Below the pieces are notes generated by a model. It saw only the letters and a program-made list of their open reading frames with translations. It made no database searches and had not been told where the DNA came from. Positions 48,052 through 63,172 of a DNA stretch of 64,000 bases are shown piece by piece. Position 1 is the stretch's first letter. The number at the start of each line of letters is the position of its first letter. The position numbers and the translations under genes are program-made. The stretch lies in assembly GCA_949288145.1 (NCBI GenBank), contig CASEJD010000121.1, forward strand, positions 1-64,000, written 5' to 3'. The stretch comes from an uncultured Coriobacteriia bacterium. GTDB taxonomy: Bacteria > Actinomycetota > Coriobacteriia > Coriobacteriales > Eggerthellaceae.

Positions 48052-48115
48052 GTTTTCTCCTTGAGAAGACGGGAACGGTCAAGTTGGTGTGAAAAATCAT
48101 GATAGATTGAACATC

Positions 48116-51100
48116 ATGGAAAACGAAATGCTCAGCACAGCCCACATGAAAAAATTCACGACCGACGGCACGCCTGATGCCGTCGTCGCACGTTATGCGC
48201 GCTTGAAAGAAGACGCTCGCACGGCTCACTATGGAGCGCTGGACGAAGACGTCGTGGTGGTGGACACCGAGACGACCGGCGTCTCCTTCAACCATGACGA
48301 GCTGACGCAGATTGCTGCGGCGCGCATGCGAAACGGACAGATCGTCGATTGGTTCGTCACGTTCGTGAACCCAGGCAAGCCTATTCCGGACGAGATTGCT
48401 CATTTGACCAATATTCATGACTCCGACGTGGCCGGCGCCCCCACGCCTTCGGAAGCGTGCGCTCAGTTGGCGGAGTTTGTGGGAACGTCGAACCTTGTGG
48501 CGCACAACAGCGCCTTCGACAAGACGTTCACGACGAAGAACGCCGGAGGCGCGCCGCTCGCGGACAACGTGTGGATCGACTCGCTTGATTTGGCGCGCGT
48601 TGCCTTGCCGCGCTTGAAGTCGCATCGTCTGATCGACCTCGTGCACGCGTTCGACGCACCGGTGTCAACCCATCGCGCTGATGCTGACGTCGAAGCCACG
48701 TGCGCGGTCTACCGCATCTTGCTGGCAGGCGTTGCCGCCATGCCTGAAGAGCTCGTGTCGTACATCGCCGGTCTAGCGAGCGTCGAAGATTGGCCGACCG
48801 TCCGCGTGTTCGAGCATTTCGCGTTCGGAGATGGGGATGGCGCAGAGCTGACCGAAAGCGAGCTTTCGGAATCGAACGACTGTGCTGTCGAGTCTGCCGT
48901 CATGAAATCCGAAATGGCTTCTCCGGAAACGACCTCACCAGATGCCGCAGAAGGCCTTGACTGGGTCGATCAGGCACTCGCGGTCATGAAAACAGAAACC
49001 ACCCCTGAGAATCCGTCTCAGGGCGCCTTGTTCGAAATGGGCGAAAAAAAGTGCAAAGCCGCCTCGTCGGTTGACCTCCGTGCGCTCCGTCGCGCGCGGA
49101 CCCGGCGAGAGCTGCGACAAGCGCCGAAGGTTGACGCCCGAACCATCACGGACGACCCAACGCGCGCGCTGTCCATTCCCTCCGAAGAAGAGGTGGCTGC
49201 TGCGTTCACAGCGGATGGTCTGGTTGGCGGCCTGTATGCGACGTACGAGCAGCGTGCTGAGCAAGTAGCCATGGCAAAAGCGGTGCGCGAAGCGTTCGCG
49301 TCCTCCACGAACTTGGCCGTCGAAGCAGGCACGGGTGTTGGCAAGTCCATGGCATACCTGGTTCCGGCAGCGCTCATGGCACAGCGCAACAACATCTCGG
49401 TCGGCGTCGCCACGAAGACGAACGCGCTGCTCGACCAACTGGTGAACAAAGAGCTCCCGCTGTTATCGAAAGCGCTCGAACAGCAGACGGGCGTGCCGCT
49501 CACGTATGCTCCGCTCAAAGGTTTCTCGCATTATCTCTGCCTACGCCGCGTGGAGAACCTGGCGCACGCAGGCGCACGCATGAAGGAAGTTGCTGGCAAA
49601 GAGGTCTCTCAGGCGCCTGCCATTGCGGGCGTGCTCTCTTATATCGAGCAGACTGAGTACGACGATATCGACACGCTGAAGGTCGATTACCGCACGGTGC
49701 CACGTTACCTCATCACCACGAACAGCACCGATTGCCTGCGTCGGAAATGCCCGTACTTCGGCACGTCGTGCTTCGTGCACGGTGCGCGCGAACGCGCGAA
49801 CGCGGCCGACGTGGTCGTGACGAACCATAGCTTGCTGTTCTGCGACGTCGCTGCTGACGGTGGCCTGCTGCCGCCGGTGCGCTACTGGGTCGTGGACGAG
49901 GCGCACGGTGCTGAAGTGGAAGCGCGCCGTGCCCTCTCGCCTGAAATCTCCGCTGATGCCCTGCTACGTCAGGCACGCCGGTTGGCCGCCGGAAGCGGAA
50001 ACACGGTGTTCCATCGCATCGAGATGGCCGCCGCCCGCACGCAGGACGATTCATCGCTCGTGTACGGGTTGTCTGCGAAGGCGAAGTCTGCCGGTGCCGA
50101 GATGGCAGCTGCGGCGGCGGAGTTCGCGCATCATTTCAAGGACCTCCTGTACTTCGACCATAATCGTCGTTCCAAGGGTTATGAGTACGTGGAGATTTGG
50201 CTCAACGACGACGTGCGCGGTAGCGAGCATTTCGCCGCGCTCGCTTCGCATGCCAACGTGTACTACGACGCGGCCGAGAAGTTCGTGAAAGCCGGTCAAG
50301 AGCTCGTGGTCGCTTTGGAGGACATCGAGCATGCCGCTGTTCCGCAGCGCGAGCTTGCTTCGCTCGTGGTGGAGACGAAGGACTTCATGAGCGCGGCCGA
50401 GGTGATCTTCTTCAACCCGTCCGACCGCTACGCCTATGCCGCCCGCCTTTCGAAGAAGGCTGACAACCCGAATGACCTGCTGCAGGCGCTTCTCGTCAAC
50501 GTGGGCTCCGAGCTCAACGGGCGTTTCTTCGAACGTACGAACAGCGTGGTCTTCGCATCGGCGACGCTTTCTATTTCAGACGATTTCACCGCGTTCGAGA
50601 GCGCGCTCGGCTTGAACACGTCGGAACAGAGCACCACGCGAACGCTGCAGCTGCCGTCAGGGTATGACTTCGATCGCAACATGACGATTTACGTGGTCGA
50701 GGACATGCCGGAGCCGAATGCCCCGCAGTACCTGTCTGCACTGCAAGACCTGCTGATCGGTGTGCACCGCGCGCAACGCGGATCCATGCTCACGTTGTTC
50801 ACGAACCGCAAAGAGATGGAGTCGTGCTTCAACGTGGTGCAGCCGGCGCTCAAAGAAGACGACTTGCGCCTGGTCTGCCAAAAGTGGGGCCTCTCCATCA
50901 AGGGCCTGCGCGATGATTTCCTGGCCGACCAACACCTGTCGCTCTTCGCGCTTAAGAGCTTTTGGGAAGGGTTTGACGCGCCGGGCGCTACGTTGCGTGG
51001 TGTGGTCATCCCGAAGCTGCCGTTCAGCAAACCGTCCGACCCGCTGTCCTGCGAACGCGGAGCGCGCGACGACAAAGCCTGGAGCCACTACGTGCTGCCG

Positions 51101-51301
51101 GCAGCCGTCATTGATACGAAGCAGGCGGCAGGCAGGTTGATTCGTAGCGCCAACGACACCGGCGTGCTGATCTTCGCTGACAAACGGCTGGTCACGAAGG
51201 GGTATGGTCGCGTGTTCCTGCGCTCGATGCCCAGTAAAACGGTGAAGTTCGTGAAAGCGAGCGAGCTAGTCGCACTGTTGGAAGCCGGTTTGGACGCATA
51301 A
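48116..51301 (+). CDS. DnaQ-DinG fusion: 3'-5' exonuclease with XPD-like helicase
   Basis: A 1061-residue fusion. The N-terminal DEDDh exonuclease has DTETTG at residues 50-55, AHNSAFD with His130, and THRADADVEATC near 190. A linker rich in Glu/Ser follows. The helicase has Walker A GTGVGKS (405-411), a Cys cluster likely binding [4Fe-4S] (CLRRKCPYFGTSC near 541-553 plus an earlier Cys), DEAH at 594-597, and QAAGRLIRS from 1003. The fusion also occurs in Firmicutes DinG. ATG at 48116 is chosen with moderate certainty; GTG at 48089 is an alternative. The next gene starts two bases after the stop. Confidence 0.9.
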   Translation: MENEMLSTAHMKKFTTDGTPDAVVARYARLKEDARTAHYGALDEDVVVVDTETTGVSFNHDELTQIAAARMRNGQIVDWFVTFVNPGKPIPDEIAHLTNIHDSDVAGAPTPSEACAQLAEFVGTSNLVAHNSAFDKTFTTKNAGGAPLADNVWIDSLDLARVALPRLKSHRLIDLVHAFDAPVSTHRADADVEATCAVYRILLAGVAAMPEELVSYIAGLASVEDWPTVRVFEHFAFGDGDGAELTESELSESNDCAVESAVMKSEMASPETTSPDAAEGLDWVDQALAVMKTETTPENPSQGALFEMGEKKCKAASSVDLRALRRARTRRELRQAPKVDARTITDDPTRALSIPSEEEVAAAFTADGLVGGLYATYEQRAEQVAMAKAVREAFASSTNLAVEAGTGVGKSMAYLVPAALMAQRNNISVGVATKTNALLDQLVNKELPLLSKALEQQTGVPLTYAPLKGFSHYLCLRRVENLAHAGARMKEVAGKEVSQAPAIAGVLSYIEQTEYDDIDTLKVDYRTVPRYLITTNSTDCLRRKCPYFGTSCFVHGARERANAADVVVTNHSLLFCDVAADGGLLPPVRYWVVDEAHGAEVEARRALSPEISADALLRQARRLAAGSGNTVFHRIEMAAARTQDDSSLVYGLSAKAKSAGAEMAAAAAEFAHHFKDLLYFDHNRRSKGYEYVEIWLNDDVRGSEHFAALASHANVYYDAAEKFVKAGQELVVALEDIEHAAVPQRELASLVVETKDFMSAAEVIFFNPSDRYAYAARLSKKADNPNDLLQALLVNVGSELNGRFFERTNSVVFASATLSISDDFTAFESALGLNTSEQSTTRTLQLPSGYDFDRNMTIYVVEDMPEPNAPQYLSALQDLLIGVHRAQRGSMLTLFTNRKEMESCFNVVQPALKEDDLRLVCQKWGLSIKGLRDDFLADQHLSLFALKSFWEGFDAPGATLRGVVIPKLPFSKPSDPLSCERGARDDKAWSHYVLPAAVIDTKQAAGRLIRSANDTGVLIFADKRLVTKGYGRVFLRSMPSKTVKFVKASELVALLEAGLDA

Positions 51302-51303
51302 CG

Positions 51304-52488
51304 ATGGCACGCAAGAAGAACAAGCTCACCGGCAGCATGCACATCAAGCAGCACACGCAGGGCACGTCGAACGAGATTTCGTTCAGCGTGCTCGACGCGC
51401 GCAAGCAACGGGCTGATGCAGGGAGCGACAAAAGCGACGTCTCCTGGGGTGTCCTCGGCGGGAACACGGCCAAGGCAGGGGGTCAGCAAACATCTTCCAA
51501 GCGCGGTGTTTCACGTGAAACATCCAAGCCGTACAACCCAGATAAAGAGATCGCGCGCCGTAAACGCCGTCGTCGTCTCAGCCGCGTCATCTCAGGCGTG
51601 ATCGGTACTTTGTTGCTTGCTGGCGTTGCTGGCGCGGTTGGATGGTACCTCTACCAAGACATTCAAACGCAGGATGCTACGCGCGGACAGCTCCATGATG
51701 CCGTCGCGCTGATTGCGGAGACCGACGAAACCGTGCTTACGCTCGACGACCTTCTAAAGCAGGAAGTGAACGAGTCGACTGTCAAGGAAATGGTGCGCCT
51801 GCAGGACGGATTCCCTGAGGCAGAGAACAAGCTGGAGACAGCCCGCCATGACGCGACGGCCGTCATCGACACGCTGCACGGAAGCAAAGACCGCGAGGCT
51901 GCGGGACAAGCGGCGAACGCTGCTACCGCGCGCGTCTCCATGTTCGAAGCAGGGTCTGACATCATCGACAAGACCGCGGAGGTGTTCGAGACGGCACAAC
52001 GCGTGGAGGCGGCCTGGAACGAAGTTCTTGCAGCGGACGCGGTGGCGCGCGAGGCAGCAAGTCTGGTGGCCGATACAACGCCGGAAAACGTGCAGCAGGC
52101 GTCGGAGCGAGCGAACGAGGCGATCGAGACCTTCAACCAGGCGTCCAATGAATTCTCTGCCCTGCGCGACGAGCATGCTTTGGTCGATGCCCAGGTGTAC
52201 CTCGACTACATCGCGAAGCGCGTAGAGTCGCTTGGGTACGCGCTCTCCTCGAACGCGGCAATCCTCATTCAGGACAAACAAACGGCCGAATCGTTCAACG
52301 AACAGTACAATGCCGCCGATGCGGAAGCGGCTGCCATGGCGGCAGAATTGCCGAAAAGCCCGACAGAAACGCTGTATGACCAGTACGACAACGAGACCGC
52401 CGAGCTGTTTGACAGCTATAACAGCGCCCGCGCGACCGCGAGTGCGGCCGACTCGTTCCTTCGGGACTATTTGGGTGAAGTAGGCTAA
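51304..52488 (+). CDS. Single-pass membrane protein with coiled-coil exterior, contains parS
   Basis: Not recognised. The 394-residue product has a basic disordered N-terminus of about 90 residues (MARKKNKLTGSMHIKQHTQG), a poly-Arg stretch (RRKRRRRLSR), one membrane helix (VISGVIGTLLLAGVAGAVGW) and a long Ala/Glu-rich helical region of about 270 residues. Repeated AxxAAxxA heptads suggest coiled coil. The parS site in the cytoplasmic part encodes GVSRETS. It starts two bases after the DnaQ-DinG stop and is followed by the M28-like gene. Confidence 0.75.
   Translation: MARKKNKLTGSMHIKQHTQGTSNEISFSVLDARKQRADAGSDKSDVSWGVLGGNTAKAGGQQTSSKRGVSRETSKPYNPDKEIARRKRRRRLSRVISGVIGTLLLAGVAGAVGWYLYQDIQTQDATRGQLHDAVALIAETDETVLTLDDLLKQEVNESTVKEMVRLQDGFPEAENKLETARHDATAVIDTLHGSKDREAAGQAANAATARVSMFEAGSDIIDKTAEVFETAQRVEAAWNEVLAADAVAREAASLVADTTPENVQQASERANEAIETFNQASNEFSALRDEHALVDAQVYLDYIAKRVESLGYALSSNAAILIQDKQTAESFNEQYNAADAEAAAMAAELPKSPTETLYDQYDNETAELFDSYNSARATASAADSFLRDYLGEVG
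51507..51522. promoter_or_regulatory. parS: parS site (perfect) inside the membrane-protein gene
   Basis: TGTTTCACGTGAAACA; in frame it encodes VSRET. Confidence 0.9.
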
Positions 52489-52545: not shown

Positions 52546-55500
52546 ATGGCGCAGATTCTTGAGGACGTTACGCAGCTGTCCCAGGACATAGGGCCGCGGC
52601 CTGCCGGCACCGAGGAAGAGCAGCAGGCTGCTCTGTACATTGCAGACCAATTCAACAAAGACGCGGGCATGGAAGCCGACGTCGAGGACTTCAAATGCGT
52701 GCCTGACTATGAGCTGGTTCGCATCGTGCTGTTCGGCGTGGCGTTGCTTGCTGCGCTCGTGGCGTTCTTGTTCGACGTCGCGGCGCTGCCAGCCGTCATC
52801 GTCGGCTTGGTCGCCGCGGTGCTCTTCGTACTCGAGCTCATCGACCGCCCGGTCGTCTCGCGTTTCTTCGAGCAAGGCATCAGCCAGAATGTCATCGCGC
52901 GTTACGTGCCGCCTGCGACCGAGGGCACCTCGTCCGCTCGCCGTCGCAAGGTCATTCTTGTCGCGCATTACGACAGCGGCCGCACGATGCCTGAGATGGT
53001 CGGGCCGGTGGTGAAGTTCCTTCCGCTGTTCTTGAAGCTTTCGTACGGCGCCATGGTGTTGACGCCCATCTTGCTGCTGATCAAGCACTTCGCCTTCGCT
53101 CATTCCGCTGGCGTCCTGGCGCTGATCTTCAACGTGCTCATCATTATTGGCATGGTGCTCATCCTGCTGTCGCTTGGCCGCGCGGTGCTTCATCGCACGC
53201 AGCCGTACAACGACGCAGCGAACTGCAACGCCGCTGGCGTCTCTGTTCTCATGGAGGTTGCCCGACGTGTTGCCGCCGGCCGCGTGAGCGAGGAAGAGAT
53301 CGCTGCGCGCGAAGCGGTGATCCACGGCGAGGAGGCGGCGCTTGAAGCCGGACTGGTGCCCGAAGGCGCGCGCCTGACCTACGAGGCGGCGCAGAAGAAG
53401 GGCCCCGACGCCGCACCGCAGAGCGAAGAGGCACGCCTGGCGTCTGCAAAGGCCGCCATTGCCGCACTGACCGGCAAGCCCGTGGAAGGTGCTGCAGAGG
53501 TGTCTAGCATCAGCGAGAACCTCGTGCAGGTCGAACCCGATCTTCCTGAGGCGACCGACGAGCTGCGCCATGAGCAGAACATGGAGATCATGAACGCCTT
53601 CACGGGCGGCACTGCTGGCTCTTCCAAGAAGGATGAGACGGAAGAGGACGTCGCTGAGGGCGAAGAGACCGAAGCGACGCCGGTTGATGAAACGACCGCT
53701 GTGGCGGAGGATGCCGCGGACGAAGCGAAAGCGGAGTCTGAGACTGAGGGCGTTTCGGTGAAGGCCGCGGGGGTTGCGGTCGCAGCAGCCGCCGGAGCCG
53801 CCGCTGCCGCAACTGCAGTAGCGTCCGCCGCGGCGCAACCTGAGGTCGACGACGACCCGAACGTTCCCGACTGGTACCGCAAGGCGCGTCAGCACGCAAA
53901 GCGCGAACCCGAAGAGGAGACGAAGAACACGACGTTCCGCTCGCGCTTCGCGTCGGCGTTGGACGCGACCGAGGAAAAACTGCACGAGCAGGATATTGAG
54001 CGCGAGGAGGAAGCCCGCAAGGAGGCCGAGGCCGAGCGCCAGCGTCAGATGATCGCGGAAGCGACCAAGGCGAAAGCGGAAGCCGCGCGCCGTGCGGAGC
54101 AGGAGAAGGCCGCCGAGGAAGAGGCCTCCCGCCAGGTTGAGCAGCTGCGCGCCGCTCAGGAGCAGAAAGCTCGCGAAGAGGAAGCCCGCGCTGAGCAAGA
54201 ACGCCTTGCTCGCGAGCAGGCAGAGCGCGAGCGTGCTGCCCAAGAAGAAGCCGCGCGCCGTGCTGAGGCCGAGCGCCAAGCGCGCGAAGAGGCAGAGCGC
54301 GCTGAGACCGCCCGCCGTGCTGAAGAGGCGCGCCGTGCTGAGGAAGCCCGTCAGGCAGAAGCCGCCCGCCAGGAAGAAGCTCGCCGTGCTGCAGAGCAGC
54401 GTGCCGCCGAAGAGCGCGCCAAGCAGGCTGAAGCAGCTGCCCGCGAGGATGTTTCACGTGAAACGCCGCAGCCAGGTGCCACGGTTGCCATGCAGCCTGT
54501 CATGATCGACAGAGAAGAGCTCCTCCGTGAAGCAAACACCGCACGCAATGATGTTTCACGTGAAACAGCCAAGCCCACTCGCGTGGAGGAAGAGCCAGCA
54601 TCGGAGGCCGTCGCGACTCAGGAGCAGCCTGTCGCCGCTGACATGCCCGACGCCACCACGGCGATGGCGCCTATTGACGTCAGCGACCTGGTCGCCGAGA
54701 TGAAGGGTATGAAGCAGGACGAGCCGAAGGTCCCAACGTTCATCACCGGTGAGAAAGAACCGATCTTCCTGCCCGAGGACGAAGCGGAAGAGCAGGCGGA
54801 GGAGGCGCAGCGTGCTGAGGTCTCGTACCGCGAGCCGAGGCATGAGCCCACGCCCGAGGAGACGGCCGCCCAGCGCCTGGTCGACCCGGACGCTCCGTTC
54901 ATTCCGGTCATTGCCGAAGAGGTTTCTGCCGCCGCCGCGAAGCGCGCCATCAAGCATGAACCGCTCATCGCCGAGGTCACGCAGAAGATCACGCTGCCCG
55001 AGCTTGATCAGGACAGCGAGGTGCTGCCGCCGGTCGTGGAGAGCACGAAACAGCGTGCGCCGCTGGCAGACGTGACCGAGAACAAGGCGAAGAAGGCCGC
55101 ACGAAGCCTGCTGTCCACCGTCCTGCCCGAGATTGGGGCCAAAGCGAAGGAGGCGACGGGAGCCATCAACCTTGCCGCTAAGAAGCATCTGACCGATCTG
55201 CCCTCGCTTTCGGGCGAGCTGCGCGGTATGACCGCCGAGCAGGCCGTCGAAGAAAAGCCTGAGCCCACGCCCGTGGAGAAAGCCGAAGAGCACGCTCCCG
55301 CCAGCCAGACGGGCTCGCTGTCGACCGCGGGTGCGACGGGTTCGTTCACGGCGGTCAGCAACGACCTGGTCGCTGAGTCCGACCTGGACGACATGTACGT
55401 CCAGGACGCCGACGATTCCGAGTACGCCGAGAACTTCACCGAAACGGGCGCGTTCGCTGGCCCTGGCTACGTCGACATGCCGAAGTCCCGCATGCAGAAG

Positions 55501-56433
55501 CTGTTCGGCAAGTTCGGCTTGGGTCGCAAGAAGAAGCACGAGGAAGAGCTCTCTGCGCACGAGTGGCTTGATGTGAGCGACGACTTCGAAGCGCGCAGCG
55601 TTGGCAAGCAGCGTGGTGGCTGGGAAAGCTTCCAGGAGGGCGCCGACGACGCGTACTACGACGAGTTCTCCGCGTCGAGTTCCGCTTCTTCCGACTCGCG
55701 TTACGTGCCGGCGGACGACGCATACCCGGCGGATGACACGCCGCTTCCGGCAAGCTCCCCGCTTCGCCGCGGCGCGAAGTTCCAGGACGCCAGCCTGGAC
55801 GGCGCGTTCGAAGAGGACGTGGATGACGAGTTCGCGAACGACACGAAGCGTTGGAACGGCGGTGCGGTCTCGAGCGACCGTGCGAGCGGCGAGGAAGCGC
55901 CTGAGGAGCAGCCTGTCGACTCCGAGAAGACCGCCGACCAGGACGAGCTGGTGGGCGAAGAACTCAAGCAGATCTACCAGTTCCGCAACCCGGACATCGA
56001 CTCCGAGGTCTGGTTCGTGGCACTGGGTGCCGAACTGTCCGGTAACAAGGGCATGAAGCAGTTCTTGGCCGACCATGCGCCGGAGCTGAAGCGCGCTGTG
56101 GTGATCAACCTCGAGGGCATGGGCGCGGGCGATCTGACCTACCTGCAGAAGGAAGGCGTGCTGAAGAAGTACAACGCCTCTTCGCGTACGAAGCGCAGCC
56201 TGCGCAAGGCGTCCCAGGCGACGGGCGTCTCGTGCGCTACGGGCGAGATGCATTGGAAGGAGTCCGCGGCGAGCGTGGCGATGTCCCACCGCCTGCAGGG
56301 CATGACCCTCATGGGCATGGAGCACGGCAAGCCCGCCTACTACGGCGACGCGCTCGATACGGCCGACGAAGTGAGTGAGGAGACGCTTCAACAGAATGCT
56401 GACTTCGTGCTCGCCATGCTCAAGAACATTTAG
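52546..56433 (+). CDS. M28-like membrane protein split by a 900-residue insertion
   Basis: A 1295-residue protein. The N-terminus (DIGPRPAGTEEEQQAALYIA) and AHYDSG (His141, Asp143) match M28 aminopeptidases. Two pairs of membrane helices follow, near residues 58-100 and 160-215, then NDAANCNAAGVSV (Asp223). A huge low-complexity insertion spans roughly 240-1140: an Ala-rich hydrophobic stretch near 405-430, an Ala/Glu/Arg coiled coil near 475-634, then acidic segments. The C-terminal part resumes the fold (ALGAELSGNKG, VVINLEGMGAGD). The last zinc His of M28 (usually HTxxD) is not seen; YYGDALDTADE is in its place. Enzyme activity is doubtful. Confidence 0.75.
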   Translation: MAQILEDVTQLSQDIGPRPAGTEEEQQAALYIADQFNKDAGMEADVEDFKCVPDYELVRIVLFGVALLAALVAFLFDVAALPAVIVGLVAAVLFVLELIDRPVVSRFFEQGISQNVIARYVPPATEGTSSARRRKVILVAHYDSGRTMPEMVGPVVKFLPLFLKLSYGAMVLTPILLLIKHFAFAHSAGVLALIFNVLIIIGMVLILLSLGRAVLHRTQPYNDAANCNAAGVSVLMEVARRVAAGRVSEEEIAAREAVIHGEEAALEAGLVPEGARLTYEAAQKKGPDAAPQSEEARLASAKAAIAALTGKPVEGAAEVSSISENLVQVEPDLPEATDELRHEQNMEIMNAFTGGTAGSSKKDETEEDVAEGEETEATPVDETTAVAEDAADEAKAESETEGVSVKAAGVAVAAAAGAAAAATAVASAAAQPEVDDDPNVPDWYRKARQHAKREPEEETKNTTFRSRFASALDATEEKLHEQDIEREEEARKEAEAERQRQMIAEATKAKAEAARRAEQEKAAEEEASRQVEQLRAAQEQKAREEEARAEQERLAREQAERERAAQEEAARRAEAERQAREEAERAETARRAEEARRAEEARQAEAARQEEARRAAEQRAAEERAKQAEAAAREDVSRETPQPGATVAMQPVMIDREELLREANTARNDVSRETAKPTRVEEEPASEAVATQEQPVAADMPDATTAMAPIDVSDLVAEMKGMKQDEPKVPTFITGEKEPIFLPEDEAEEQAEEAQRAEVSYREPRHEPTPEETAAQRLVDPDAPFIPVIAEEVSAAAAKRAIKHEPLIAEVTQKITLPELDQDSEVLPPVVESTKQRAPLADVTENKAKKAARSLLSTVLPEIGAKAKEATGAINLAAKKHLTDLPSLSGELRGMTAEQAVEEKPEPTPVEKAEEHAPASQTGSLSTAGATGSFTAVSNDLVAESDLDDMYVQDADDSEYAENFTETGAFAGPGYVDMPKSRMQKLFGKFGLGRKKKHEEELSAHEWLDVSDDFEARSVGKQRGGWESFQEGADDAYYDEFSASSSASSDSRYVPADDAYPADDTPLPASSPLRRGAKFQDASLDGAFEEDVDDEFANDTKRWNGGAVSSDRASGEEAPEEQPVDSEKTADQDELVGEELKQIYQFRNPDIDSEVWFVALGAELSGNKGMKQFLADHAPELKRAVVINLEGMGAGDLTYLQKEGVLKKYNASSRTKRSLRKASQATGVSCATGEMHWKESAASVAMSHRLQGMTLMGMEHGKPAYYGDALDTADEVSEETLQQNADFVLAMLKNI
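54450..54465. promoter_or_regulatory. parS: parS site (one mismatch) inside the M28-like gene
   Basis: TGTTTCACGTGAAACG, encoding DVSRET near residue 635, directly at the end of the coiled coil. Confidence 0.85.
54552..54567. promoter_or_regulatory. parS: parS site (perfect) inside the M28-like gene
   Basis: TGTTTCACGTGAAACA, encoding DVSRET again, 102 bases after the previous site. Confidence 0.9.
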
Positions 56434-58108: not shown

Positions 58109-59662
58109 ATGGCACGTTCCTCCCAGAAGGGCACCGGTGGAAAACACGCCGCTCCCAACCAGGGCAACCAACCGTACACGCCGTCAACCAATCCTTATAG
58201 CCGCAACAACGCGCATTACCGCGCGGGGGCGGGTGCTCACAACCAGGCTCAACACGGTGGCGTCAACCACCCTGTGGGCGTCGGGGCCAACCAGTATTCT
58301 CGTGCCACCGCGGACTACAGCAAGAAGAAGCGTGGTCTTTCGCGCGGCAAGAAGATCGCCGTCGGCATCGTGTGCGTGCTCCTGGTGGCCCTGGTGGGCG
58401 TGGGCGTCGCTGCCGCGTGGTTCCTGGGCGGCGTGGACAAGACCCTCCAGGGCAACCTGACCGACGAGCAGCGCAACGCCGTCTCCCAGGTCACCCAGCC
58501 GAACGCGAACTTCGACAAGCCGTTCTACATGCTGCTCATCGGCTCGGACGCGCGCGCTGACGACGCCTCCATGGGCCAGCGCTCTGACACGAACATCCTT
58601 GTGTACGTGGACCCGGTGCAGAACATCGTGAGCATGGTCTCCATCCCGCGCGATACCATGATCGAAATCAACGGCAACACGGAGAAATTTAACGCCGCGT
58701 ACGCGTACAACGGCCCGGCTTCCACCATCACGGAGGCGAACGAGCTCTGTGGCATCAAAATCTCGCACTACGCGGAAGTGAACTTCGAGAACCTGGTCGA
58801 CCTTATCGACGCCGTGGGCGGCGTGGAAGTGGACGTCCCTGAGCGCATCAACGACCCCGACGCGGGCAATATCGTGATCGAAGAGGGCCCGCAGACCCTC
58901 GACGGCGAAGCGGCGCTCGTGTTCGCCCGCAGCCGTGCGTACGCCGACGGCGACTTCACGCGCGCATCCAACCAGCGCCTGCTGGTGGAGGCCCTCATCA
59001 ACAAGGTGCTCTCCATCTCCCCCACGGAGCTGCCGGGCGTCATCCAGAAGGCCGCCGAGTGCGTGACCACGGACTTCTCGTCCACGGAGATCATCGACCT
59101 GGCCCTGCGCTTCCAGGACGGCGACATCACCATGTACTCCAGCATGGTGCCGTCCACCACGGCCATGGTCGGCGGCGTGTCGTACGTGCTCACATACCAG
59201 ACCCAGCTGGACGAGCTCATGGCGGTGGTCGAAGCCGGCCAGGACCCGTCCACCGTCAACATGGTCGGCACGCAGTCCGACATCCGCGAAGAGCAGCTCG
59301 AGCTCATGAGCGGTAGCAGCGTCACGTACGAGGGCGGCACGATCGGCGGCTATGGCGCCGTCTCAGACGGGTATAGCGACTCAGGGTACTCCGACTACGG
59401 TTCGAGCGCATATGGCTCCTCAGCGGGCGGCAGCTCTGGTTACAGCGACTATGGCTACGACGATGACTACAGCGGTGGCTCGGGCTACTCTTCTGGCTAT
59501 TCCGATGGCTCCGGTTCCTACGATTCCGGCTATTCTGACGAAGGCAGCGGCGGGTACTCCGACAGCTCGTATTCCGGCGGCGGATCGTCGGAATACGCGG
59601 GCGACTCGGACTACTCCGAGGACAGCAGCGCTTCCGGGTACGAGGCAGTGCCCGAGGAATAA
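58109..59662 (+). CDS. LytR-CpsA-Psr (LCP) cell-wall ligase with Ser/Tyr/Gly-rich tail
   Basis: A 517-residue LCP protein that attaches polymers to peptidoglycan from lipid carriers. A disordered N-terminus of 80 residues precedes the membrane helix IAVGIVCVLLVALVGVGVAA. The LCP domain starts near residue 138 (FYMLLIGSDARADD), with the conserved Arg in VSIPRDTMIEI and VFARSRAYADGDFTRASNQR. From about residue 400 the tail is made almost only of Ser, Gly, Tyr and Asp, with many SGYSD and GGYSD-like units. The LCP domain and tail lie outside the membrane. Confidence 0.93.
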   Translation: MARSSQKGTGGKHAAPNQGNQPYTPSTNPYSRNNAHYRAGAGAHNQAQHGGVNHPVGVGANQYSRATADYSKKKRGLSRGKKIAVGIVCVLLVALVGVGVAAAWFLGGVDKTLQGNLTDEQRNAVSQVTQPNANFDKPFYMLLIGSDARADDASMGQRSDTNILVYVDPVQNIVSMVSIPRDTMIEINGNTEKFNAAYAYNGPASTITEANELCGIKISHYAEVNFENLVDLIDAVGGVEVDVPERINDPDAGNIVIEEGPQTLDGEAALVFARSRAYADGDFTRASNQRLLVEALINKVLSISPTELPGVIQKAAECVTTDFSSTEIIDLALRFQDGDITMYSSMVPSTTAMVGGVSYVLTYQTQLDELMAVVEAGQDPSTVNMVGTQSDIREEQLELMSGSSVTYEGGTIGGYGAVSDGYSDSGYSDYGSSAYGSSAGGSSGYSDYGYDDDYSGGSGYSSGYSDGSGSYDSGYSDEGSGGYSDSSYSGGGSSEYAGDSDYSEDSSASGYEAVPEE

Positions 59663-59824
59663 CCCAGGCTCGCTCAGTATCCTGAGATGTATGTACGGCT
59701 CAAGCGGGCAGACATGACGCATCGATGACGTTGTGCCTGCTCGCTTGTTCATTTTTCAAGCAAGACGCCTATACTGGTGCGGTTTGGGACACCGCGGCCG
59801 CAGGCCGCCCGGCGGAAGGCAGCC

Positions 59825-62800
59825 ATGCTCGAGCTGAAGAACATCACGAAGAACTACATCTCCGGCGACGAGACGGTGCACGCGCTCAAAGGCGTGAGCG
59901 TGAGCTTTCGCGAGAGCGAGTTCGTGGCGATTCTGGGCCAGTCGGGCTGCGGTAAGACCACGCTGCTCAACATCATCGGCGGCCTGGACCAGTACACCGC
60001 AGGCGACCTGGTCATCAACGGCGTCTCCACCAAACAGTACAAGGACAAGGACTGGGACGCCTACCGCAACCACAGCGTCGGCTTCGTCTTCCAGAGTTAC
60101 AACCTCATCCCGCACCAGACAGTGCTCTCCAACGTGGAGCTGGCGCTCACGCTCTCGGGCGTGTCGAAGGCCGAGCGCCGCCAGCGCGCTGTGAAGGCGC
60201 TGCAGGACGTGGGCCTGGGCGACCAGCTGCGCAAGAAGCCCAGCCAGATGTCCGGCGGCCAGATGCAGCGCGTGGCCATTGCCCGCGCGCTCGTGAACGA
60301 CCCGGACATCATCTTGGCCGACGAGCCCACCGGCGCGCTGGACACCGCCACGTCGGTGCAGGTCATGGACATCCTGCGCCAGGTGGCAAAAGACCGCCTG
60401 GTGGTCATGGTCACCCATAACCCTGAGCTGGCCGAGCAGTACGCAACGCGCATCGTGCGCCTGCTCGACGGCGTGGTCCAGGAGGACACGAACCCGCCGA
60501 GCGCCGCCGAGCTGTCTTCCGCCCTGCAGGCGCGCCAGAGCTCCGCTCCCGAAGGCCGCAAGAGCGGCAAGACGCGCATGGGCTTCCTCACGGCGCTGTC
60601 GCTCTCGCTCAACAACCTCATGACCAAGAAGGGCCGCACGCTGCTCACGGCGTTCGCCGGCTCTATCGGCATCATCGGTATTGCGGCCATCCTTTCGCTC
60701 GCGAACGGCGTGAACGCCTATATCGCCAGCGTGGAGGAGGACACCCTCTCCGAATACCCGCTTACCATCGAAGACCAGGGCTTCGACATGACGAGCATGA
60801 TGACCGCCAGCATGGGCATGACGGGCGATGGCTCGTCCAGCGACGAGGGGAACGGCGAAGGCGAAGGCTCCGAAGATGGCTCGCAGAACGCCGACGACAA
60901 GCCCATCCACGAGGCGAAGATGGTCTCGAGCATGTTCGGCAGCATCGGCAGCAACGACCTAGCCGCGCTCAAGAGCTTCCTCGACAGTCCGGAGTCCGGC
61001 ATCGGCGAGTACGTGAACTCCATCGAGTACAGCTACAACGTCACGCCCCAGATTTTCAGCTCGGACACGTCGAACGGCGTGCGCCAGGTGAACCCGGACA
61101 CGTCGTTCAGCGCGCTGGGCTTCGGCTCCACCACCACGAGCAATAGCATGATGTCGTCCATGATGACCACGGACATGTTCTACGAGCTGCCCTCCGACAT
61201 GGGGCTGGTGGAGAACCAGTACGACGTGGTGGCCGGCCGCTGGCCGGAGGGCTCCAACGAGTGCCTGCTCGTGCTCACGTCGAACGGCAACGTGAGCGAC
61301 TTCTTGCTGTACACGCTCGGTTTGCGTGATTCCACCGAGCTTGAGGACATGGTGCGCCAGTTCGCCAACGAGGAAGAGGTCACGGTGCCCGAAGACCGCC
61401 TCTCCTTCGACTACCAAGACATGCTGGACGTCTCGTTCAAGCTGGTGAACGCTGCCGACTACTACCAGCGCGACGACCAGTACAACGTGTGGGTCGACAA
61501 GTCCGGCGACGAGGCGTACATGACCGACCTCGTGAACAACGGCGAGGACCTGCACATCGTGGGCATCGTCCAGCCGAAGCCCGACGCGAACATCACCTCG
61601 CTCACTACGGGCATCTGCTACACGCCCGCGCTCGTGGAGCACCTGGTGGACGAGGCGTCGCAGACGCGGGTCGTCCAGGACCAGCTGGCGAACCCGAGCG
61701 TGAACGTGTTCACGGGCAAGTCGTTCGTGGAGGAAGAGCAGGAGCAAGACGACGAGTTCGACATGAGCTCGCTGTTCACCATCGACGGCGAGAAGATCCA
61801 GGCGGCCTTCACCATCGACCAGAGCAAGCTGCAGATGGACCTCTCCGGCCTGCAGCTGGACACCTCGGCGCTCAACATCGACGCGGCGTCGCTGCCGGCG
61901 TTCGACGCGGCGTCCATCAACCTGAGCCCGAGCATCGACCTGAACGCGCTCAACCTGGACTTCAGCGACCTGTCGCTTTCGCTCGACGGCGGCCTGAACA
62001 CTGCCGACATGGTGAAGCCCGAGGCGCTCAGCTCCGCCATGGCCGGCGTCATCGAGGGCTTCTTCCCCTGGTGGCAGGGCGGCGGCACCACCACGACCGA
62101 TGTGTCGCAGGCGTTCCAGGAGTACATGGCCACCGAAGCGGTGCAAGAGCAGCTGGGCCAAGCCATCGCGGGCTCCATCGACCTGACCGGCATGGAGGAG
62201 GGCATCCAGACCGCCGTGCAGGAGCAGCTGGCCCCGCAGATCCAGGCGAAGGTGGCCGAGCAGCTGGTGCCCGCGCTGCAGAGCGCCATCTCGGAATCGC
62301 TGCAGACCTTGCTCTCGAGTGCGCTGCAAAGCTACATGCAGAAGGCGCTCACCCAGGTCATGGGCAACGTGACCAGCCAGCTCGAGGCGCAGATCACCTC
62401 CGCCATGCAGCGCTCCATGAGCCAGCTGTCCCAGAACATGGCCTCCGCCATGAGCATCGACGAGGACGCCTTCGCCGACGCGTTCCAGATGAACATGGAC
62501 CAGGAGCAGCTGACCGAGCTCATGATGTCGCTCATGACCACCGAGGAGAGCTCGTACGCGGGCAACCTGCGCGATTTGGGCTACGCCGACTTCAACGAGC
62601 CGTCGGGCATCGACATCTACCCGAAGGACTTCGAGAGCAAAGAGCACGTCGTCCAGATCCTCGACGACTACAACCAGCGCATGGAGGACGAAGGCAAAGA
62701 GGACCAAGTGGTCACCTACACCGACATCGTGGGCGCGCTCATGTCGTCGGTCACCACTATCGTGGACATGATCACGTACGTGCTCGTGGCGTTCGTGGCC

Positions 62801-63172
62801 ATCTCGCTCGTGGTGTCGTCCATCATGATCGGCGTCATCACCTACATCAGCGTGCTCGAGCGCAACAAGGAGATCGGCATCCTGCGCGCCATCGGCGCGA
62901 GCAAAGGCGACATTGGCCGCGTGTTCAACGCCGAGACGCTCATCGTGGGCTTCGTGGCCGGCATGATCGGCATCGGCGTGACGGCGCTCGGCTGCATACC
63001 GGCGAACGCCATCGTCTACGCGCTCTTCGACGTGCCAAACGTGGCCATCCTGCCCGTGAACGCGGCGGTTATCCTGGTGTGCATCAGCATGTTCCTCACG
63101 TTCGTGGCGGGCTTGCTGCCCTCGAGCATCGCCAGCCGCAAGGATCCTGTGGTGGCGCTGCGCAGCGAGTAG
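59825..63172 (+). CDS. ABC exporter: ATPase fused to MacB/FtsX-type permease with a huge outer domain
   Basis: A 1115-residue single-chain transporter half. The ATPase has Walker A GQSGCGKT (38-45), signature MSGGQMQRVAIARAL (142 on) and DEP from 166. Membrane helix 1 is near 272-296 (LLTAFAGSIGIIGIAAILSL). Then comes an outside domain of about 680 residues, with an acidic Gly/Ser loop, a leucine-periodic stretch near 680-730 and a Gln/Ala-rich helix of about 130 residues. Three helices follow from 982 (MITYVLVAFVAISLVVSSIM). Such transporters export peptides or lipids, or act as mechanotransmitters. ATG at 59825 has GAAGG. Confidence 0.9.
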   Translation: MLELKNITKNYISGDETVHALKGVSVSFRESEFVAILGQSGCGKTTLLNIIGGLDQYTAGDLVINGVSTKQYKDKDWDAYRNHSVGFVFQSYNLIPHQTVLSNVELALTLSGVSKAERRQRAVKALQDVGLGDQLRKKPSQMSGGQMQRVAIARALVNDPDIILADEPTGALDTATSVQVMDILRQVAKDRLVVMVTHNPELAEQYATRIVRLLDGVVQEDTNPPSAAELSSALQARQSSAPEGRKSGKTRMGFLTALSLSLNNLMTKKGRTLLTAFAGSIGIIGIAAILSLANGVNAYIASVEEDTLSEYPLTIEDQGFDMTSMMTASMGMTGDGSSSDEGNGEGEGSEDGSQNADDKPIHEAKMVSSMFGSIGSNDLAALKSFLDSPESGIGEYVNSIEYSYNVTPQIFSSDTSNGVRQVNPDTSFSALGFGSTTTSNSMMSSMMTTDMFYELPSDMGLVENQYDVVAGRWPEGSNECLLVLTSNGNVSDFLLYTLGLRDSTELEDMVRQFANEEEVTVPEDRLSFDYQDMLDVSFKLVNAADYYQRDDQYNVWVDKSGDEAYMTDLVNNGEDLHIVGIVQPKPDANITSLTTGICYTPALVEHLVDEASQTRVVQDQLANPSVNVFTGKSFVEEEQEQDDEFDMSSLFTIDGEKIQAAFTIDQSKLQMDLSGLQLDTSALNIDAASLPAFDAASINLSPSIDLNALNLDFSDLSLSLDGGLNTADMVKPEALSSAMAGVIEGFFPWWQGGGTTTTDVSQAFQEYMATEAVQEQLGQAIAGSIDLTGMEEGIQTAVQEQLAPQIQAKVAEQLVPALQSAISESLQTLLSSALQSYMQKALTQVMGNVTSQLEAQITSAMQRSMSQLSQNMASAMSIDEDAFADAFQMNMDQEQLTELMMSLMTTEESSYAGNLRDLGYADFNEPSGIDIYPKDFESKEHVVQILDDYNQRMEDEGKEDQVVTYTDIVGALMSSVTTIVDMITYVLVAFVAISLVVSSIMIGVITYISVLERNKEIGILRAIGASKGDIGRVFNAETLIVGFVAGMIGIGVTALGCIPANAIVYALFDVPNVAILPVNAAVILVCISMFLTFVAGLLPSSIASRKDPVVALRSE

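Follow-up and report, generated by a model that had tools for sequence, protein, structure and literature searches.

Nicalin and nicastrin are eukaryotic membrane proteins that resemble M28 peptidases and are without peptidase activity, and each crosses the membrane once and holds its domain in the lumen. The pairing of nicalin with TMEM147 has been modelled on that of nicastrin with APH1 (PMC7505659). We analyzed an M28-like gene in a 64,000-nucleotide stretch of DNA (contig CASEJD010000121.1 of assembly GCA_949288145.1, positions 1 to 64,000, here called the window) from an uncultured bacterium of the Eggerthellaceae, a family of the order Coriobacteriales. The open reading frame (ORF) lies at 52546-56433 on the forward strand, where the initial annotation had placed it, begins with ATG, runs through 1295 uninterrupted codons, and is present as a single copy in the genome; ORF listing, a genome search, Pfam, and substitution ratios all bear on it. 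The closest named locus was that of Candidatus Aveggerthella excrementigallinarum, with 92% identity over the C-terminal half. The sequence comparisons described below suggest that the product is probably a membrane-anchored cytoplasmic pseudopeptidase that acts as a scaffold.

The two ends of the protein had been described as zinc-peptidase halves, and Pfam for the C-terminal half and an orthologue profile for the N-terminal half both upheld this description. The Pfam M28 model (PF04389) matched residues 1149-1290 with an E value of 6.5e-11, above the cut-off, and gave no match to the N-terminal half. A profile built from the N-terminal parts of 24 orthologues nevertheless led to solved M28 peptidases, with an E value of 1.1e-13 for YwaD (6hc6), and aligned with it in three segments that followed one another in order. 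The first comprises residues 1-50 ('SQDIGPRPAGTEEEQQAA', 52546-52695, + strand), of which profile positions 6-53 correspond to YwaD residues 50-97; the second ('ISQNVIARY...VAHYDSG', 52879-52983, + strand), in which His141 and Asp143 are kept, corresponds to YwaD residues 220-253; and the third ('YNDAANCNAAGVSVLMEVARRV', 53203-53274, + strand), with Cys227 in place of the bridging Asp, corresponds to YwaD residues 255-281. The profile of the C-terminal half (55996-56430, + strand) was weak when used alone (E values of 0.011 for YwaD and 7e-4 for the aminopeptidase 2ek8) and aligned with YwaD residues 282-426, so that the second half begins at the residue after the one at which the first half ends. 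Relatives without an insert between the halves gave an unbroken Pfam M28 match across the junction, and their profile matched YwaD with an E value of 2e-25. Because the two alignments adjoin in order and the insert-less relatives are continuous, the ends are, on these alignments, the halves of a single M28 fold. The segment order, the HxD motif, the SQN strand, and the position of the catalytic Glu are all recognizable from YwaD and 2ek8, but the window protein differs from these peptidases in lacking the full set of zinc ligands and an evident signal peptide and in having two transmembrane (TM) hairpins and an insert of 907 residues.

The zinc site was read as seven columns (His and Asp of the HxD motif, bridging Asp, catalytic Glu, Glu, Asp, and His), for which the canonical string is HDDEEDH. 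In the window protein this string is HDCELEG (H141, D143, C227, E1163, L1164, E1190, and G1267). The absence of the final zinc His and the alteration of acidic ligands, both noted in the initial annotation, were thus confirmed, as the bridging Asp has become Cys, the second Glu has become Leu, the third acidic ligand has changed from Asp to Glu, and the final His has become Gly. Comparison of the five zinc ligands of an active M28 enzyme with those of the window protein, a check proposed at the same time, found the set to be incomplete here and complete in none of the 86 Coriobacteriales members read. Conversely, the full string was present in 30 of 55 relatives from the same class outside the order and in 7 of 20 relatives at the phylum level, and approximately 10 further class relatives kept all ligands with the catalytic Glu replaced. 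These counts indicate that related lineages possess the site and that the whole order lacks it. Within the Eggerthellaceae (n = 52), the first ligand was divided evenly among H, R, and N (17 members each), with P in one, the bridging position was C in 23, and the second Glu and the last His were lost in all. The catalytic Glu, which is Glu1163 here, was kept in 45 of the 52, and in the other families of the order Ser, His, or Gly occupied its position. Classical M28 activity has therefore very probably been lost, judging from these ligand columns, and the suggestion that the protein is a pseudo-enzyme gains strong support from the difference between the order and the class.

Other modifications of the site were seen among relatives. 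Eight class relatives of family f12 (L157, L196, L198, L200, L202, L211, L219, and L223) have the string HDDKEDH, with Lys for the catalytic Glu, and may possibly bind metal without hydrolysing a substrate. All seven members of family f10 within the order (L109-L112, L114, L115, and L117) combine a bridging Cys with His, Glu, Glu, and His and may possess an altered metal site. Several phylum-level genomes (L175, L177, L179, L184, and L185) encode several short membrane M28 paralogues, some with sites that have degenerated separately (NDDG...).

Hydropathy analysis predicted four TM helices within the first half, arranged as two hairpins. Hairpin 1 (approximately residues 57-96, 52714-52833, + strand) takes the place of YwaD residues 98-219, and hairpin 2 (approximately residues 161-208, 53026-53169, + strand) follows the HxD motif and precedes the bridging-ligand motif. 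These four helices correct the single Ala-rich hydrophobic stretch reported previously; the Ala-rich run at residues 407-430 is not a conserved helix and is absent from the orthologue L036. In the 77 family members in which four helices were detected, the loops within the hairpins were short (means of 3 and 9 residues) and carried 0.2 and 0.7 Lys plus Arg per whole loop versus 0.9 to 2.4 per 15-residue flank on the M28 side. By the positive-inside rule, these counts predict that the M28 core and the insert both lie on the cytoplasmic side. Given the layout of the M28 fold, hairpin 2 emerges on the face that bears the active site and the insert on the other face, and the former active-site pocket may therefore face the membrane.

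The insert, delimited by ligand columns, block alignment, and hydropathy, spans residues 244-1150 (53275-55995, + strand) and separates the helix that follows the bridging ligand from the strand running up to the catalytic Glu pair. It had been annotated as a low-complexity insertion of approximately 900 residues; it is not merely low complexity, since alignment of 52 Eggerthellaceae members revealed approximately 10 conserved blocks, some of them compound (244-285, 289-319, 433-480, 698-717, 809-866, 878-897, 918-1037, and 1095-1115). The region at 433-480 (53842-53985, + strand) holds the blocks 'PNVPDWYRKARQ.AK' and 'RSRFASALDA', and a P-[DAES]-W-[FYLIM] motif was found in 50 of the 52 Eggerthellaceae (family f1) members. 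The 120-residue block at 918-1037 (55297-55656, + strand), which contains 'WLDVSDDFEARSVGKQRGGWESF', is as conserved as the M28 halves themselves, and this core corresponds to the WLGVDEDFDARKAGKDIGSWDNF motif found in class relatives whose zinc sites are full. The shared end motif, WLG-FDAR-GSWDNF, occurred in a loose form in 19 of 20 class members, 33 of 52 Eggerthellaceae members, and no phylum-level relative. The Ala/Glu/Arg coiled coil of approximately 160 residues that had been described is present as a prediction at approximately residues 480-640 (53983-54465, + strand) and is restricted to a few genera; a stretch as dense was found in 4 of the 52 Eggerthellaceae orthologues.

The family is near universal in the sampled Coriobacteriales, with orthologues in 93 of 100 genomes and in 75 of the 77 of good quality. 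Neither the window protein nor any of the order members tried gave a match in NCBIfam, and a limited literature search found no paper describing this family. Ratios of nonsynonymous to synonymous substitution (dN/dS) between the window gene and L036 were 0.07 for the N-terminal half, 0.11 for the insert, 0.043 for block 918-1037, and 0.057 for the C-terminal half; these are rough values, as synonymous distances in the insert are near saturation. Codons in every part of the gene are under purifying selection.

The distribution of inserts and sites allowed the order of events to be considered. Insert length was approximately 0 in phylum-level relatives, 106-390 residues in the class, and 269-1564 residues in the order, and class members with intact sites carried inserts of 175-282 residues. 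The short multi-TM relatives from the same phylum (L174, L176, L178, and L182, approximately 380 residues) have the same TM hairpins and M28 segments as the window protein but no insert and a full zinc site. The class relatives outside the order (for example, L154 and L161, approximately 560-610 residues) have the same architecture, with the insert in the same place and the same end motif, and differ in their shorter inserts and in the full zinc site kept by 30 of 55. Since full-site class relatives already carry inserts and phylum-level relatives have none, the insert is probably older than the loss of the site, and the likeliest reading of these sequences is that the insert was acquired first and the site was lost afterward. 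A tree built without the ligand columns, with midpoint roots and weak deep branches, placed the order in one clade (99% support in the Shimodaira-Hasegawa-like approximate likelihood ratio test) and the Eggerthellaceae in another (100%). A clade uniting the order with f11, f13, and f14, class families whose sites are degenerate, was not rejected by the approximately unbiased test (p 0.52), and a single main loss of the zinc site is therefore possible.

Immediately upstream of the M28-like gene, and ending 58 bp before it, lies a gene (51304-52488, + strand) identified from the ORF list and neighbour comparison, whose product is a single-pass protein with a long C-terminal part that is probably helical. 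Of 51 Eggerthellaceae loci, 38 had a homologue of this putative partner directly upstream, as did loci of families f2, f3, f5, f7, f8, and f9; in the f3, f5, and f8 loci it was kept even though none of the window's other tested genes was found nearby. In class relatives the partner was usually upstream on the same strand, at 0.03-7 kb, where enough sequence could be read. An apparent link between partner adjacency and site loss, in which five of five testable degenerate class members but none of the intact members had the partner adjacent, was abandoned when a larger sample yielded intact members whose partner lay 220 and 525 bp away and degenerate members that had no partner inside 3 kb. The partner gene starts 2 bp after the stop codon of a gene for a fusion of a DnaQ-like exonuclease and a DinG-like helicase (48089-51301, + strand; ORF list, Pfam, and NCBIfam). 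With gidB, parA, and parB at 41.9-45.0 kb of the window, the order parA/parB, RlmN-like gene, DnaQ/DinG fusion, partner, and M28-like gene is common to most Eggerthellaceae loci. Downstream, the window encodes a LytR-CpsA-Psr protein with a long C-terminal tail rich in Ser, Gly, and Tyr (58109-59662) and a single 1131-residue chain that joins an ABC ATPase to an FtsX-like permease (59777-63172). By sequence reading alone, TrkA-like potassium-uptake regulators lie downstream of the M28-like gene in L092 (family f8) and in the class relative L165.

In the scaffold model that we favor, the two TM hairpins would hold the folded pseudo-M28 core at the cytoplasmic face of the membrane, and the insert, which exits the core through the loop preceding the strand where the catalytic Glu pair once stood, would display a series of short conserved motifs for the recruitment of cytoplasmic partners. 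The neighbouring single-pass protein, with its probably helical extracytoplasmic domain, would probably belong to the same complex and carry it across the membrane. We infer the cytoplasmic location, the lack of catalysis, the scaffold role, the use of the insert motifs as docking sites, and the physical partnership with the neighbour. AlphaFold prediction of the Eggerthella sinensis orthologue L037 from a three-sequence alignment gave no usable fold (predicted local distance difference test score, 33.5). Two results weigh against this model. Families f4 and f10 and several Eggerthellaceae genera lack the partner gene, and the partner is therefore not obligatory. The f10 members of the order keep four ligand-capable residues (H, C, E, E, H), so that metal binding is possible in some order members. 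This last result also bears on an alternative that we regard as unlikely, namely, that the protein is still an enzyme or a metal-binding sensor in which Cys227, His141, Glu1163, and Glu1190 hold one metal. The window protein does keep His141, Glu1163, and an acidic residue at 1190, and in L036 and L052 a His precedes the lost ligand by two positions, but Arg, Asn, or Pro takes the place of His141 in 35 of the 52 Eggerthellaceae members, 29 have another residue for Cys227, none retains the second Glu or has His at the final position, and the catalytic Glu is replaced in every order member read outside the Eggerthellaceae. That the gene is decaying and the insert is genetic noise has next to nothing in its favor once selection and distribution are considered: a lost site and an insert that varies from 269 to 1564 residues across the order might be expected of such a gene, but its presence in 75 of 77 good genomes, dN/dS ratios of 0.04 to 0.11, and the conserved insert blocks already contradict it.

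Two further alternatives concern what the insert might do. An FtsZ-tail-like peptide could dock it on the division machinery (DDDPNVPDWYRKAR compared to DEDYIPDFLKRQR), as the FtsZ tail is nearly invariant in the family, the insert contains a VPDW motif, and the pattern matched 21 of 52 members and 1 of 2600 shuffled inserts. Across genera, however, conservation is limited to P-x-W-[FY] and the short A-rich, helix-like stretch after it, the pair of basic residues typical of FtsZ tails is frequently lacking (VPAWFVAAQQKAR), and the pattern was picked only after the motif had been seen, all of which make this docking very unlikely. Still less probable, in our estimation, is that the nascent protein tethers parS, and with it the origin region, to the membrane, as the initial annotation had speculated. 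The two parS sites it reported within the gene are exact motif matches (54451-54464 and 54553-54566, no strand assigned), both lie in the insert and read VSRET, and they belong to a membrane protein encoded in an origin-proximal operon next to parAB. The window holds 9 parS-like sites versus 0.25 expected, and all of the parS-like 16-mers in the genome with two or fewer mismatches lie in this contig, which identifies it as the origin region. Sites within the gene are not conserved with the protein, however, as 6 of 52 Eggerthellaceae orthologues have them and the other families examined have none; families f3, f5, and f8 keep the gene with no parAB or DinG neighbours detectable in the 3-10 kb fetched upstream; and the partner gene also holds a parS, a third exact copy at 51508-51521 that likewise reads VSRET in frame. 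All parS sites within the M28-like gene are in frame 0, with exact copies reading VSRET, and another reading of parS contains a stop, which limits its positions within genes. Most simply, parS is tolerated by a disordered insert of a gene that lies near the origin, and the link of the gene to the chromosome origin appears to be coincidental.

Returning to the pseudopeptidase scaffold, its likeness to nicalin and nicastrin lies in an M28-like fold within a membrane protein, with the full zinc site absent from the window protein, and the profile of the insert-less bacterial relatives matched nicalin with an E value of 3.7e-4. The arrangements differ, since nicalin and nicastrin have a single TM helix and an extracytoplasmic domain, whereas four TM helices interrupt the fold of the window protein, its core is predicted to be cytoplasmic, and its insert bears motifs; moreover, their partners (TMEM147 and APH1) are multi-pass and the product of the window's neighbouring gene is single-pass. 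More tentatively, and with confidence well below even, the family could be an order-wide bacterial counterpart of nicalin and nicastrin that gained its insert while apparently active, then lost its site, and became a hub that, with a single-pass extracytoplasmic helical protein, organizes an essential envelope process of the Coriobacteriales. Living intermediates are represented by relatives with a full site and no insert, with an insert and a full site, with the catalytic Glu alone changed, and by a whole order without the site, and the family thus illustrates a route from an enzyme to what would be a noncatalytic scaffold. As it is near universal in a prominent gut order and strongly selected, with no NCBIfam match or paper found, it makes a good subject for functional studies in Eggerthella.

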